64,000 nt of DNA, taken from Pseudanabaena galeata CCNP1313 (GTDB taxonomy: Bacteria > Cyanobacteriota > Cyanobacteriia > Pseudanabaenales > Pseudanabaenaceae). The translations under genes and the position numbers were made by a program. Positions 9,649-43,930 of the stretch are shown piece by piece. The notes below the pieces were generated by a model. It saw only the letters and a program-made list of their open reading frames with translations, was not told the DNA's origin and did not search any database. Position 1 is the first letter of the stretch. Each line of letters starts with the position of its first letter. The DNA lies in contig NZ_CP112874.1 of the NCBI RefSeq assembly GCF_029910235.1, positions 1,798,001 through 1,862,000 on the forward strand, in the 5' to 3' direction.

Positions 9649-9812
9649 CTGATGTTACGTGGAACTCAGATGGTGAACCTCTTGCTGCTAGCATGATAGG
9701 GCAACCATGGGGGGATTGTCCTTACCTGTAAATTTTAGATATTGTAGGGGCTGCGCCCCTGTGTTAGCCCTAGACTCACGCCATCGCAAGAAGTCCTTCC
9801 ACGTAACATCAG
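9649..9812. mobile_element. 164-bp MITE, copy A
   Basis: Perfect 16-bp terminal inverted repeats CTGATGTTACGTGGAA and TTCCACGTAACATCAG. Both sides are flanked by the direct repeat TTATTTAA (9641-9648 and 9813-9820), the mark of a transposition event. The interior holds a GGGGCTGCGCCCC-type palindrome and no gene. It has the same length as the copy at 34651-34814. Confidence 0.9.
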
Positions 9813-12627: not shown

Positions 12628-12792
12628 CTAATCTTACGTGGATGGAATGCCTGCAATCATCTAAGTTTAGGGCTTGCCCTGTAGTGCAGCCCCTACAAAA
12701 TCTAAATTATTAGGGTAGGGGCAATCCCCCCGTGGTTGCCCTGTCGTGCTAGCAGCAAGAGATTCATTCTCTGAGTTCCATGTAACATCAAG
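12628..12792. mobile_element. 164-bp MITE family, copy B (decayed)
   Basis: Ends CTAATCTTACGTGGA and TCCATGTAACATCAAG are diverged versions of the 16-bp inverted repeat at 9649-9812, with a similar interior (GGGCTTGCCCTGTAGTGCAG, GGGCAATCCCCCCGTGG). The flanking bases do not match, so the target duplication is lost. Confidence 0.8.
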
Positions 12793-13096
12793 TATGACTA
12801 ACTGTTGTTACGCAGAACAAAAATAGTCACCATGTTTCGATATCATCTTGAAAGAGAATTTGGCGACCAAATCCCTACTTGTTTGTAAAGGTCGGGGCTT
12901 GGTCTCTAAATCCCAATCTCTGCTTCTTTGTGGATTAAGAAACAAACCCAGTCAGGGTTTTAAACATATAAAATGGCTAGACCATTTTATATGTAGTTCT
13001 AGAAAGTAAAGGCGGCGTATATCGCCGCCTTTACTTTCTATACCTTATGACCTAACTTTACTGACAGCTATATTTTATACAGATTGAATAAATAGA
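12793..13096. other. Repeat-filled intergenic region
   Basis: No gene seen. It holds two palindromes: 12965-12993 (CATATAAAATGG, mirrored) and 13000-13040 (TAGAAAGTAAAGGCGGCG, mirrored). The second lies about 55 bases before the transporter start. Confidence 0.6.
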
Positions 13097-34650: not shown

Positions 34651-34814
34651 CTGGTGTTACGTGAAAGGAATTTTTGCGATGGCATAAGTCTAGGGCTTGC
34701 CCTGTGGCGCAGCCCCTACGAGATCTAAAATTTACAGGTAGGGGCAATCCCCCCGTGGTTGCCCTGTTATGCTAGCAGCAAGAGGTTCATCATCTGAGTT
34801 CTACGTAACATCAG
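34651..34814. mobile_element. 164-bp MITE, copy C
   Basis: Ends CTGGTGTTACGTGAAAGG and TTCTACGTAACATCAG; direct flanking repeats TTATAA at 34645-34650 and 34815-34820. It ends 13 bases before the kinase ATG. With the flank, the right junction creates TATAAT at 34816-34821. Confidence 0.88.
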
Positions 34815-39628: not shown

Positions 39629-40510
39629 GTTTCAAGGCCTCTGTTTGTGAGGTTATATGAGGAAAAGTCGTTTTTTGTCGGAAAACATTATTTCCCTATT
39701 GCTATATGCACTTACCAGTGATACAAGAGTTAAATATTCTTTATGTGAGGATAAGTGAGTTTAGCGGTCACAGGTTGATTGAAGTTGTATAAATCAACTG
39801 CAATAGCCCTTGTTGACAAACACAATACAGTTCAAATTTCAATTTGCACACCAGAAAAAATAGTATTTTTTGTCAGTAAATACATGAATAAAGCCCAGAA
39901 TACTAATTAGTAAGATTCTGAATTCTTTGTATTTATCTAATACAAAAATAGTTCACTACTTAATAAGTAGTTTAGAAGTTGTATTTGTATTAGCCTGAAA
40001 AAATAATTTTCATTTAAAAGTCGCCAATCAAGTCGCTAGTATGTTGTAAAAAGTCAAAACAAGATCTTTAAATATTTTGTTTGTAAAAACAAGATTTTAA
40101 GATAAATTTGTCTGCGAGTATGGATTAGCCAATACCTACAAGGCTCTATTTATGTAGATATATCAGAAAAGACAAGAAAAAATTGGTGCATATCCAAGCC
40201 AATGTCAGACTAAATCAGGATTTAGGAAAAAGCTGGATAAATCCATTGCAAATACAAAAATATATGTTATTTATCTAACGTGAAAAAACAAGAATATGTT
40301 GATTTAATTATCTGCAATTGCTGTAATTAGTCATTATAAAAATGTGGCTCATTAAATTGCTAGATAAATTTAGATCACAAGTAGATCGCAAGACAAATTC
40401 AAACAAATGTAAAACATTTATTTGAATTCTAAAGTTTGAATTCTAAAGTTAATCCAACTTTTGCATTACTAATCCGATACCGAGACATTAAATTGAGAGG
40501 AGTTACGACC
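39629..40510. other. Long AT-rich intergenic region before the NB-ARC gene
   Basis: About 880 bases without a credible gene or repeat family member, unusual in this window. It must contain the promoters of two divergent units. A 14-bp tandem duplication, TTTGAATTCTAAAG twice, is at 40421-40448. Confidence 0.6.
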
Positions 40511-42637
40511 ATGACTACGATGACTATTGAAGACGCGATCGCAATTGTTGATACAGCCCTACAGCACAAGCGCTTGAGTAATATTCAGGAGCAAGTATTT
40601 CGCCAAACATGGGATGGCAAGACTTATGCTGAGATTGCGGAGACTTGCGGATACGATTCTTCTTATATTCGTGACGTGGGTTATCGTCTGTGGAAAATCT
40701 TGTCCGATGGCTTGGGAGAACGGGTGACTAAGCACAATCTTCAAGTCGTAGTGCGGACTCAAGCCAAGAATTTTCAGGTTAAGGCAACTCAACAGGAGTC
40801 AAATCAGACGAGCGCTCACAATCCTCACAACCCTTTGAGTCTCGTCAATCCTCACAATCCTGAGTCGATTGCTACCGAACTAAATACCAAGCGCTGTGAC
40901 TGGGGCAATGCGATTGATACTTCAATTTTTTATGGTCGTACCGAAGAACTTAGCAGGGTCAAAAGTTGGGTGATTGACGATCGCTGCCGACTTTTAGGGG
41001 TATTCGGTATGGGTGGTATTGGTAAAACCGCTTTTGCCACAAAGCTTGCTGAACAGGTGCAGTCAGAATTTACATTAATTGCTTGGAAATCCCTACGCAA
41101 TGCGCCCACTGTAGAAACAATGCTTGCCGAATTGGTCAGCTTTTTGACCAACCAAGCGATCGCTACTTTGCCCCAAGATTTAAACAGTCTCTTGGGTATG
41201 TTCATTCCTGCCTTGAAGCAATCACGCTGCTTGATCGTGTTGGACAATGTGGAATCAATCCTACGCAGTGGCGAAACCACAGGACAATATAGTGAAGGTT
41301 ATGAAGGCTATGGCGAATTATTCCGTCAAGTTGGTGAAGTACGTCATCAAAGTTGCTTGATTTTGACTAGTCGCGAAAAACCCCATGATGTATTGCCTCC
41401 CGATAGCAGCGATCTCATGGTACGTTCTCTGCAATTAACAGGGCTAAAGGAAGAAGCGCGGCAAATGTTTCAGCCAGAATTGGCGATCGCCCCTGCAACT
41501 CGTAAATTGATCGATTTCTACTGTGGAAATCCTCTTGCCCTGACAGTGGTATCACGTTCGATTAACAGCATGTTCGATGGTGACATCCAAGAATTTCTCG
41601 ATCAAGATGCCAATGTGTTTGGCGATATTCGTTATCTCCTCGATCAACAATATGGTCGCCTTTCAGAACGCGAGCAACAGGTCATGTATTGGCTAGCGAT
41701 CGAGCGCGAACCCATCACCACCGACAATCTACGTCAAGACATCGTGCCAATGGTTTCCAAATCCCAAATTTTGGAATCAGTGATTTCTCTACGCTGGCGA
41801 TCTCTAATTGAGAAGAATGCCAATAGCTTCACGCAGCAGCCTGTGGTAATGGAATATATGACCGATCGCTTGATCGATATGGCTTACAACGCGGCGATCG
41901 AGCGTAGTCCTGAATTCTTGATGAGCTATGCCCTCGTTCAACATCGCGCCGAAGACTATATTCGCGAAACTCAGATTCGTTATATTTTGCAACCTCTGAC
42001 CAATCGCCTCTTGGCGCACTATGGCAGTGTCGATACTTTACAACGTGAATTGCATAGCTTACTTGAGACTTTGCGCGATCACCAAACAGCGATCGGCTAT
42101 GCCCAAGGCAATATCATGAATCTCCTGCGGGCTTCGCAAACCGATCTCACTAAAAGCTTTTGTCGTTTCCCTGAAAGGGTGACAGAGCATTCTGATCTAC
42201 AAATTTTAGGGAGATTGCTCGAAAGCGATCGCGCTGGCGGACTTGCCACATGGGATCACCGCATTCCTTGGGCAAATAATCCCCTCGCTCAACAGACTTC
42301 CGAATCCAAAACCCAGATCCGCAGCAAAAATCTCTACTACCAATGGACAGAAGGTTCTCTCGAACAGTTGCAACAGGAACTGAAGCAACAACCCAAATTC
42401 CGCAAGAAATATCATGCTTGGTTAAATGAGACAGAATTTGCAGCGATCGATGCTGATTTTGAAGCCGTAAAAATTACCGACACGCTCAATCAACCCGTTG
42501 ATGCCAGATTGGTTTTCATTAATGAGGTCAACATTGTTGAGCCTCCTGTCGGACTGCCAACACCTAGCGATCGCCGCGCCCAAGCCAGAAAACAAAAGCA
42601 AGATTTGCGAGCCAATCGCTCTAAGCGACTCGGCTAA
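40511..42637 (+). CDS. NB-ARC STAND NTPase with vMAP-type N-terminal domain
   Basis: 708 residues from ATG at 40511, preceded by GAGAGGAG. The N-terminal 85 residues (EDAIAIVDTALQHKRLSNIQ, VFRQTWDGKTYAEIAE) match the helical domain typical of cyanobacterial STAND proteins. NB-ARC domain from about 137: Walker A GMGGIGKT (166-173), Walker B CLIVLDNVES, the TSRE sensor, and GNPLALTVV. The C-terminal 250 residues have neither WD40 nor TPR repeats; they end in a basic tail. STAND NTPases act as switch platforms in signalling or antiphage defence. The effector and sensor are not obvious. Confidence 0.88.
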   Translation: MTTMTIEDAIAIVDTALQHKRLSNIQEQVFRQTWDGKTYAEIAETCGYDSSYIRDVGYRLWKILSDGLGERVTKHNLQVVVRTQAKNFQVKATQQESNQTSAHNPHNPLSLVNPHNPESIATELNTKRCDWGNAIDTSIFYGRTEELSRVKSWVIDDRCRLLGVFGMGGIGKTAFATKLAEQVQSEFTLIAWKSLRNAPTVETMLAELVSFLTNQAIATLPQDLNSLLGMFIPALKQSRCLIVLDNVESILRSGETTGQYSEGYEGYGELFRQVGEVRHQSCLILTSREKPHDVLPPDSSDLMVRSLQLTGLKEEARQMFQPELAIAPATRKLIDFYCGNPLALTVVSRSINSMFDGDIQEFLDQDANVFGDIRYLLDQQYGRLSEREQQVMYWLAIEREPITTDNLRQDIVPMVSKSQILESVISLRWRSLIEKNANSFTQQPVVMEYMTDRLIDMAYNAAIERSPEFLMSYALVQHRAEDYIRETQIRYILQPLTNRLLAHYGSVDTLQRELHSLLETLRDHQTAIGYAQGNIMNLLRASQTDLTKSFCRFPERVTEHSDLQILGRLLESDRAGGLATWDHRIPWANNPLAQQTSESKTQIRSKNLYYQWTEGSLEQLQQELKQQPKFRKKYHAWLNETEFAAIDADFEAVKITDTLNQPVDARLVFINEVNIVEPPVGLPTPSDRRAQARKQKQDLRANRSKRLG

Positions 42638-42672
42638 ATAAAAAAGCTTCCTTTTGGGAAGCTTTTTTATTT
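42636..42672 (+). terminator. Intrinsic terminator of the NB-ARC gene
   Basis: AAAAAAGCTTCC, loop TTTT, GGAAGCTTTTTT immediately at the stop codon. The T-rich tail is the insertion target of MITE copy D. Confidence 0.85.
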
Positions 42673-42673
42673 A

Positions 42674-42994
42674 CTGGTGTTACGTGGAAGGAATTCCTGC
42701 GATCATCAAGGTTGGGGGCTGGCACGGGGGCACAGCCCCTACAGTTTCTAAAATTGTACAGGTAGGGGGAATTCCTGCGATCATCAAGGTTGGGGGCTGG
42801 CACGGGGGCACAGCCCCTACAGTTTCTAAAATTGTACAGGTAGGGGGAATTCCTGCGATCATCAAGGTTGGGGGCTGGCACGGGGGCACAGCCCCTACAG
42901 TTTCTAAAATTGTACAGGTAGGGGCAATGCCCCCGTGCTTGCCCTGTCACGCTAGCAGTAGAAGATTCATCATCTGCGTTCCACGTAACATCAG
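42674..42994. mobile_element. 164-bp MITE family, copy D, enlarged to 321 bp
   Basis: Ends CTGGTGTTACGTGGAA and TTCCACGTAACATCAG with direct flanking repeats TTATTTA at 42667-42673 and 42995-43001. The interior contains three tandem 78-bp units where other copies have one. The right duplication includes the stop codon of the SDR gene. Confidence 0.9.
42691..42924. repeat. Three tandem 78-bp units inside MITE copy D
   Basis: Units start at 42691, 42769 and 42847 with GAATTCCTGCGATCATCAAG and are essentially identical. Because 78 is a multiple of three they create artefactual repeat-peptide frames on both strands. Confidence 0.93.
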
Positions 42995-43930
42995 TTATTT
43001 AACCTCTTTAAGTAAATTTGCTAGACGGGGATACTTAGAAACTAGACCGAAAGTTTCGGGAGAAACAACATCATAGGTGAAGTGACGCTGGGCAATGCAG
43101 AAACGATCCCACTCAGCAACTTCAATGCGGAATAGTTTGATCACCGTATCCACTAGCCACGGAGTTAATTCAAACTGCCAGCCCACTTTTAAGTTCAAAT
43201 GTTCGCAGAATTGTGTAATTAAATCCTGTACAGTTAAACGCTGCATTCCTAAAACCAGACGGGCGGGGGATGTGGGTACTGAGGTAGCCGTGAGCAAATG
43301 TGTAACGATTTGAGCGATATCGATCGCATGGACAAAATGGAAACTACCGTCTGTTTTTAAAAATCTCGCATAGGGTACATATTTGAGAATGTCTTTGAGT
43401 CCCTTGGAAAGATGGGAATAGGGCTTATCCGCAGCACCACCAAAAACAAGAGTAGGAAAAACAGTAATTAGGCGATCGCGAATAATTGAATTTTCTAGAG
43501 TCTCTAGACAAGAGTGTTTGGAAGCGATGTAAGCTGTGCCAATTTCCCCTGCTTCGTGAATAATTTGATTATGAGAATCGAGAATGCTAGCGGTGGAGAA
43601 ATAGATCGCCCGTTCGCATACCTGTGGATCGAGCATTGAAAACAGTTCAATGGTTTTATCGCGATTAACGATAAAGGCTTCTTCCCCACCCCAACCTGCG
43701 GCTGTACTCACCACAAATTCCATTGTCCGCAGCAAGTCTTTATGATTACCGATATTCTGCATTGAATCTTCGATTACATGTACATTCGGGCGATCGCTGA
43801 GGCTGATTTGTAATTTGCGGCGATCGCGTACTAGCAGATATAGCTCATAGTCAGTTTTTGCTAAGAGTTCTTCAATCAAATAATGTCCAACACAACCACT
43901 CGCACCTGTAATAAAAACTTTTTTTGGCAT
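42995..43930 (-). CDS. NAD-dependent epimerase/SDR family protein
   Basis: 311 residues, extended SDR Rossmann fold: VFITGASGCVGHYLIEELLA at the N-terminus (nucleotide-binding Gly motif), STAAGWGGEE, and the active-site region TAYIASKHSCLE with Tyr-x3-Lys. Relatives act on nucleotide sugars, flavonoids or similar; the substrate is unknown. The last codons and TAA stop (42997-42995) reach into the target duplication of MITE D. Confidence 0.85.
   Translation of the reverse strand: MPKKVFITGASGCVGHYLIEELLAKTDYELYLLVRDRRKLQISLSDRPNVHVIEDSMQNIGNHKDLLRTMEFVVSTAAGWGGEEAFIVNRDKTIELFSMLDPQVCERAIYFSTASILDSHNQIIHEAGEIGTAYIASKHSCLETLENSIIRDRLITVFPTLVFGGAADKPYSHLSKGLKDILKYVPYARFLKTDGSFHFVHAIDIAQIVTHLLTATSVPTSPARLVLGMQRLTVQDLITQFCEHLNLKVGWQFELTPWLVDTVIKLFRIEVAEWDRFCIAQRHFTYDVVSPETFGLVSKYPRLANLLKEVK

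Follow-up and report, generated by a model that had tools for sequence, protein, structure and literature searches.

How did a MITE come to hold three identical copies of part of its own interior? The question is raised by an element that we call copy D, which lies in a window of 64,000 nucleotides from Pseudanabaena galeata CCNP1313. The initial annotation described D as a 321-bp element that has kept its inverted repeats and a TTATTTA duplication and contains three exact 78-bp units, and it proposed a recent tandem amplification inside a mobile element. Reading of the sequence, Tandem Repeats Finder and the pairing of terminal inverted repeats (TIRs) with target site duplications (TSDs) bear out every one of these structural points and support a MITE with an apparently recent internal amplification (Table 1). 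Our joint reading, to which we assign a probability of about 0.8, is that D is a MITE mobilised in trans, that its insertion is specific to this lineage, and that the G-rich arm of the family has been duplicated by slippage or template switching on no fewer than three separate occasions.

Table 1. Features of copy D, its surroundings and related elements. Positions without a prefix are those of the window; G000 is the window's genome.
Feature	Position	Strand	Remarks
Copy D, MITE with internal tandem expansion	42674..42994	+	321 bp; sequence read, Tandem Repeats Finder, TIR pair and TSD
D left TIR CTGGTGTTACGTGGAA	42674..42689	+	one mismatch against family end CTGATGTTACGTGGAA
D right TIR TTCCACGTAACATCAG	42979..42994	-	exact reverse complement of CTGATGTTACGTGGAA
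D TSD, left copy TTATTTA	42667..42673	.	7 bp
D TSD, right copy TTATTTA	42995..43001	.	first three bases supply the TAA stop of the 42995-43930 gene (-)
D unit 1, 78 bp	42690..42767	+	left arm of internal palindrome plus loop; starts at inner edge of left TIR
D unit 2, 78 bp	42768..42845	+	identical
D unit 3, 78 bp	42846..42923	+	identical
D right arm, single	42924..42978	+	unduplicated
Neighbour gene, NB-ARC/AAA ATPase protein	40436..42637	+	
Terminator-like stem AAAAAAGCTTCC...GGAAGCTTTTTT after upstream gene	42640..42668	+	by reading; D inserted beside it
Neighbour gene, NAD-dependent epimerase family	42995..43930	-	convergent
Copy A, unexpanded	9649..9812	.	164 bp; TSD TTATTTAA
Copy B, unexpanded	12628..12791	.	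164 bp; ends mismatched; no exact TSD
Copy C, unexpanded	34651..34814	.	164 bp; TSD TTATAA
Expanded copy E (L002)	C1:2419988-2420381		394 bp; 7-bp TSD
Expanded copy F	C1:2738912-2739166		255 bp; 7-bp TSD
Unrelated cores inside family ends	L082:968-1119, L150, L167, L085:1755-2008, L168:951-1262, L169:426-679		
IS1380-like element	L077:4356-6151 = G000:C1:4216355-4218150		454-aa transposase, PF13701
G012 elements with family ends and other core	L215:198-494, L216:219-564		nested palindromic insertion bounded by AGCTACnGTGTACAC
Insertion sequences with family ends	L236 (G015), L237 (G020), L238 (G005), L239 (G038), L240 (G007), L252 (G038)		

The three units of D are identical letter for letter. 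Among the 13 rows returned by Tandem Repeats Finder the array scores 471 (period 78, 3.1 copies, 99% matches), and the next best score is 88. The TIRs of D are 16 bp long with one mismatch between the pair, and its longest + strand frame has no Pfam match and encodes no transposase. When D is reduced to one unit it measures 165 bp, as does its closest unexpanded relative, from Pseudanabaena sp. UWO311, which explains the odd extra base in D. These data indicate that D is a real and apparently recent feature. The identity of the units suggests that the amplification itself is recent.

The window holds three further copies. Copies A and C were described correctly as 164-bp elements with target duplications (Table 1). 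Copy B had been placed at 12628-12792 (165 bp); it ends at 12791, measures 164 bp and has imperfect ends without an exact TSD. Scanning the window for the family end gave 11 matches at up to 3 mismatches, whereas shuffles gave 2.96 on average. An isolated variant end, CTGTTGTTACGCAGAA, is found at 12802-12817, starting 11 bp after copy B, and related CTGATGTTACGCAGAA ends occur elsewhere in the genome.

Across G000, the family end occurs 139 + 145 = 284 times at up to 2 mismatches, while the reversed control occurs 0 + 0 times. The 164-bp type is short, lacks a transposase and is present in high copy, as expected of a MITE. We paired the ends in fetched stretches into a census of 93 distinct TIR pairs, 73 of them with the 164-bp core, a core that the census favours (the 284 ends would give about 140 pairs). 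Pairs with more than 6 mismatches, after weighting for a TSD, or longer than 700 bp were dropped before counting, and the census contains a small number of composites made up of adjacent copies (L019 and L025, for example). Exact TSDs were 6 bp long in 26 pairs, 7 bp in 38 and 8 bp in 2, with none in 27 and TTAATTA the commonest (8); these shares are not unbiased because pairing gave weight to pairs with a TSD. The same 16-bp ends also flank unrelated palindromic cores of a CCCTCACCCCTAGCCCC type and a GGCTTGGTCTCCAAGCC type, and the mobile unit is therefore defined by its ends rather than by its core. A single set of ends seems to have picked up several dispersed repeats.

Two candidates drawn from longer structures were set aside. 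A TIR "pair" 1.8 kb apart in L077, considered as an autonomous partner, turned out to be a 164-bp MITE copy into which an IS1380-like element (PF13701) has inserted. Elements of 297 and 346 bp in G012, considered as tandem arrays, are nested palindrome insertions instead. Separately, two MITE copies, L159 (G000:C1 near 4541100) and L183 (near 1266200), are interrupted at the same point, AGCCCC/TTGTATCTAGG, and the MITE core may be a target of the interrupting sequence. In L159 this sequence runs into a frame that, by eye, presumably resembles an IS110-type transposase.

What moved these elements? The initial annotation had proposed a genome search for an autonomous transposase with the 16-bp ends, and had warned that matching ends might lie near no transposase gene at all. 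The warning is overturned at the level of the genus. Six insertion sequences of 1121-1134 bp, in five related genomes, have the same 16-bp ends as the MITE; the ends are exact on both sides in five of the six and carry 1 mismatch in the other. Exact 6-7-bp direct repeats flank four of the six, the exceptions being L237 and L238, so that insertion sequence and MITE share both the ends and the kind of target duplication. The ATG frame is 354 aa in L236, L237 and L238 and 353 aa in L240, and L239 and L252 have an ATG frame of at most 205 aa within a frame that stays open for 364. The L236 transposase, the one scanned at full length, matches NCBIfam NF049921 "IS701 family" at 353.3 bits (cut-off 250) and also Pfam DDE_5 and DDE_Tnp_1. 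We were led to this transposase by G021, where a solo end adjoins a transposase frame that terminates, at a TAA, inside the terminal repeat. The transposase stop TAA also sits within the TIR TTCCACGTAACATCAG of the insertion sequence in L236 and L228. MITE copies A, C and D resemble the insertion sequences only over the terminal 16-22 bp.

Target duplications of the IS701 family are usually 4 bp, whereas they are 6-8 bp for this MITE and 6-7 bp for its insertion sequences. We take the IS701 name from the transposase, and we infer from the shared ends that a transposase of this family probably moved the MITE in trans.

Searching the genus with the G021 transposase (E up to 1e-20) recovered relatives in 17 of 26 genomes and none in G000 at that threshold. 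The best match to NF049921 in G000 reaches 43.9 bits, below the cut-off of 250. G000 has 70 matches to PF01609; none of the 30 loci scanned for ends is bracketed by a TIR pair. The same is true of further G000 stretches representing one copy of most remaining size classes; outside these stretches lie some 30 more copies belonging to those classes, a 321-aa frame interrupted by a stop, and the shorter variants of the 454-aa class. Inspected by eye, the ends in G008, G012 and G021 form no long-spaced pair (for G021, among the matches listed). The proposed search thus succeeded in five relatives and found no close transposase copy in the window's own genome. Therefore, the present mobility of the family is doubtful, and these results suggest that it has outlived its transposase in G000.

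We next consider when D inserted, for which relatives with a comparable site are informative. In G005 both flanks align without the element, the left at 96% and the right at 91% identity. The flanks also stand side by side, with the element absent, in G008 (Pseudanabaena sp. UWO311) and G019. In G020, too, both flanks align; about 80 bp of other sequence precedes the stem and, by reading, the element does not follow it. G017 and G010 differ in carrying other sequence between the two flanks, and the right flank did not align at the remaining loci. No second genome has the element at D's site among the loci compared (one genome per species). The empty sites indicate that the D insertion is specific to this lineage among comparable genomes. 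The initial annotation had also raised the prospect that all copies in relatives might carry the same three units. This is not so, both because D's site is empty in G005, G008 and G019 and because the 21-base core of its expanded arm, GGTTGGGGGCTGGCACGGGGG, occurs in five stretches from named relatives, once in each and unexpanded. The site is a (TTTA)n run of varying length, and the length of D's TSD is therefore ambiguous to the base. Near-identical flanks on both sides are shared by two other copies with the 21-base core, L203 (G000:C1 near 4514300) and L171 (P. tenue FACHB-1050), so that insertion predates the split of these two genomes, unlike D.

The site also bears on whether the array is functional, either as a transcription barrier between convergent genes or as a repeat peptide. 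An intergenic position between convergent genes would suit a barrier, and open frames on both strands would suit a peptide, since 78 = 3 x 26 and a 140-aa frame stays open. However, the terminator-like stem is already there and, by reading, is also found in relatives whose D site is empty, and the insertion is absent from aligned relatives. No Pfam match was obtained for the open frame, which begins outside the element, and a coding role for it was rejected on these grounds. We found no function indicated for the array and consider a function very improbable.

D is one of three expanded copies in the genome. E and F (Table 1) likewise have intact ends around an internal tandem array, so that all three are minisatellite-bearing MITEs. 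E holds five units, of 59, 55, 55, 61 and 59 bp, and F holds a 13-bp unit eight times. Short changes in the E units, GCGATCCTCAAGG, GCGGATCGG and GCGGATCTCTCAAGG, look like small inversions or template switches round GATC. When the one-unit form of each element was compared with 64 unexpanded copies, D was nearest to the UWO311 copy (95.8%), E to L004 from its own genome (98.2%) and F to a copy from Phormidium tenue FACHB-1050 (G012; 97.6%).

D, E and F belong to one sub-lineage and are expanded in the same arm, as they would be if a single expanded ancestor had been spread by transposition. Such an ancestor would have to account for units that differ in length and endpoints (78, 55-61 and 13 bp) and for one-unit forms that are nearest to different unexpanded copies, two of them in other genomes. 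On these differences we reject a common expanded ancestor, which is strongly disfavoured. Different units and different unexpanded nearest relatives therefore point to three independent amplifications, and the simple reading of the sequences would be three independent expansions of the same arm. Other tandem duplications in the family are L186 (70 bp x2), L204 (38 bp x2) and L084, which has another core (40 bp x2). By eye, L008 and L080 have tandem duplications of 8 and 10 bp.

It could be argued that the arrays, known from assembled contigs alone, are artefacts of assembly or polishing. A search for GGCTGGCACG repeated at a period of 46-76 bp, a range that misses D's 78 bp, returned only E and F, and such an array is absent from all 25 relatives. 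However, G000 is a 5.84-Mb genome in 6 contigs with 100% estimated completeness, whereas many of the relatives are in tens to hundreds of contigs and could hide arrays themselves. Three unit types at three loci, with the E units diverged from one another, are also unlike one misassembly. We regard an artefact as unlikely.

What distinguishes the elements that expanded? An exact 23-base core, AAGGTTGGGGGCTGGCACGGGGG, is present in four elements of G000, namely D, E, F and the unexpanded L004, so that three of the four are expanded. The 21-base core adds the unexpanded L203 to these (3/5 expanded, P = 1.5e-3). A shorter motif, GGCTGGCACGGGGG, forms 75 clusters in G000, and in only three of these, D, E and F, does it recur on one strand. 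Exact direct repeats of 18 bp or more occur in 3/4 elements with the 23-base core compared to 3/89 other census elements (Fisher P = 6e-4); motif repeats alone give 3/4 against 0/71 clusters with L186 and L204 left out (P = 6e-5) and 3/4 against 2/71 with both counted (P = 6e-4), and all P values for the core are descriptive because D, E and F had already been seen when the G-rich core was chosen. Duplication does not require the G-run, as L186, L204 and L084 are duplicated without GGTTGGGGG. Nor is the G-run sufficient, since L004, L203 and the five named-relative copies carry the 21-base core unexpanded.

The left arm was compared by G4Hunter, with scores of 1.76-1.80 in four unexpanded members of the G-rich sub-lineage and a median of 1.2 in 60 others, two of which reach 1.76 and 1.8. 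F has gained a canonical G-quadruplex motif, and none of the 64 unexpanded copies has one. One possible account, which we put forward tentatively, is that the GGTTGGGGGCTGGCACGGGGG arm is a mobile repeat-expansion allele, in which a few point changes that lengthen the G-run make a formerly inert arm give rise, time and again, to minisatellites of differing period that transposition then scatters. If this is true, the G-quadruplex motif of F could feed further growth.

Direct repeats are also commoner in the family than outside it. Of the 93 elements, 6 have an exact direct repeat of 18 bp or longer, against 14/1913 control windows (P = 2e-4). The control windows had a fixed length of 180 bp and were taken from genic as well as intergenic DNA, whereas expansion itself makes the expanded elements longer, and 5 of the 14 control matches come from one array in L083. 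The enrichment would fit units made during transposition, by an aberrant transposase or hairpin-processing reaction and not by replication. The D and E units also begin at the inner edge of the left TIR or one base inside it. However, the opposite unit ends fall well within the element, as do the units of F, L186 and L204 at both of their ends; the terminal repeat is never duplicated, and the E units vary stepwise, as repeated slippage would give. An origin during transposition is therefore improbable.

Replication slippage or template switching at the hairpin or G-rich arm, with 1-5 bp of homology, is the most likely cause of the duplications. A single-unit copy folds as one long hairpin at -41.6 kcal/mol, compared to -20.3 +/- 2.8 kcal/mol in shuffles, and D folds at -75 against -44.5 +/- 4.4. 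Exact homology at the ends of the duplications is 1 bp in D, 5 bp in E and 3+1 bp in F. With only 1 bp of exact homology at its junction, simple direct-repeat slippage is poorly supported for D itself; by eye, this junction has an imperfect 8-bp match, GGAATTCC/GCAATGCC. Stalling at the hairpin or the G-run may cause the duplication, an idea that fits these data and falls short of proof.

Taken together, the history of D would run as follows. D would be a non-autonomous element whose 16-bp ends are recognised by an IS701-family transposase acting in trans. The parent insertion sequence appears to survive in sister genomes, with no close copy found in G000. The insertion of D probably postdates the divergence from G005, the closest relative compared, and lies in an AT-rich stretch bounded by the terminator-like stem and the end of the convergent gene. 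The element is predicted to fold as one long imperfect hairpin, and its left arm, reading GGTTGGGGGCTGGCACGGGGG, would have been duplicated when replication slipped or switched template between very short direct repeats. Existing repeats may then have grown to multi-unit arrays by slippage or unequal exchange. Expansion would have occurred at least three separate times in the ancestry of the G000 copies, giving 78 bp x3 in D, 55-61 bp x5 in E and 13 bp x8 in F.

These elements make up a naturally occurring series in a bacterium, in which three unexpanded variants stand beside three independent expansions, with a transposase-bearing relative in sister genomes. The series opens the birth of minisatellites inside mobile elements, and with it the long-G-run arm hypothesis, to direct test. 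No published account of this Pseudanabaena/IS701-type MITE family was among the literature matches listed, in a search that mostly excluded subscription journals. Compared to the IS701 family (NF049921), the MITE has the same 16-bp ends as the matching insertion sequence and lacks the coding part. Like cyanobacterial MITEs such as Nezha, it is short and non-autonomous; Nezha was reportedly described as a cyanobacterial MITE by Zhou et al. in 2008 (cited in PMC10969869).

MITE-borne minisatellites are already known, and the family described here adds an unusually complete set of parents together with independent expansions. BrickBuilt of Porphyromonas gingivalis is a minisatellite inside a MITE (PMC4596501). 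Like the elements described here, it is an intergenic bacterial MITE that lacks its own transposase, has short inverted ends and holds a tandem array in its interior. The number of units in BrickBuilt varies from strain to strain. Its one unit is 23 bp long, and ATCC 33277 has 19 copies, 4 of them with both ends. Unlike BrickBuilt, most census copies of our family are unexpanded, three copies have gained different units independently, and the unexpanded counterparts are known. The Xenopus MITEs Xstir and miDNA4 illustrate a route from MITE-internal repeats to satellites (PMC12628747). Xstir resembles our elements in that its tandem repeats derive from internal MITE sequence. For miDNA4, which is thought to have captured a ready-made repeat, microhomologies of at least 5 bp are proposed to change the array. 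In contrast to these eukaryotic MITEs, the arrays described here are found in a bacterium, comprise only 2-8 units and were made from the element's own arm.
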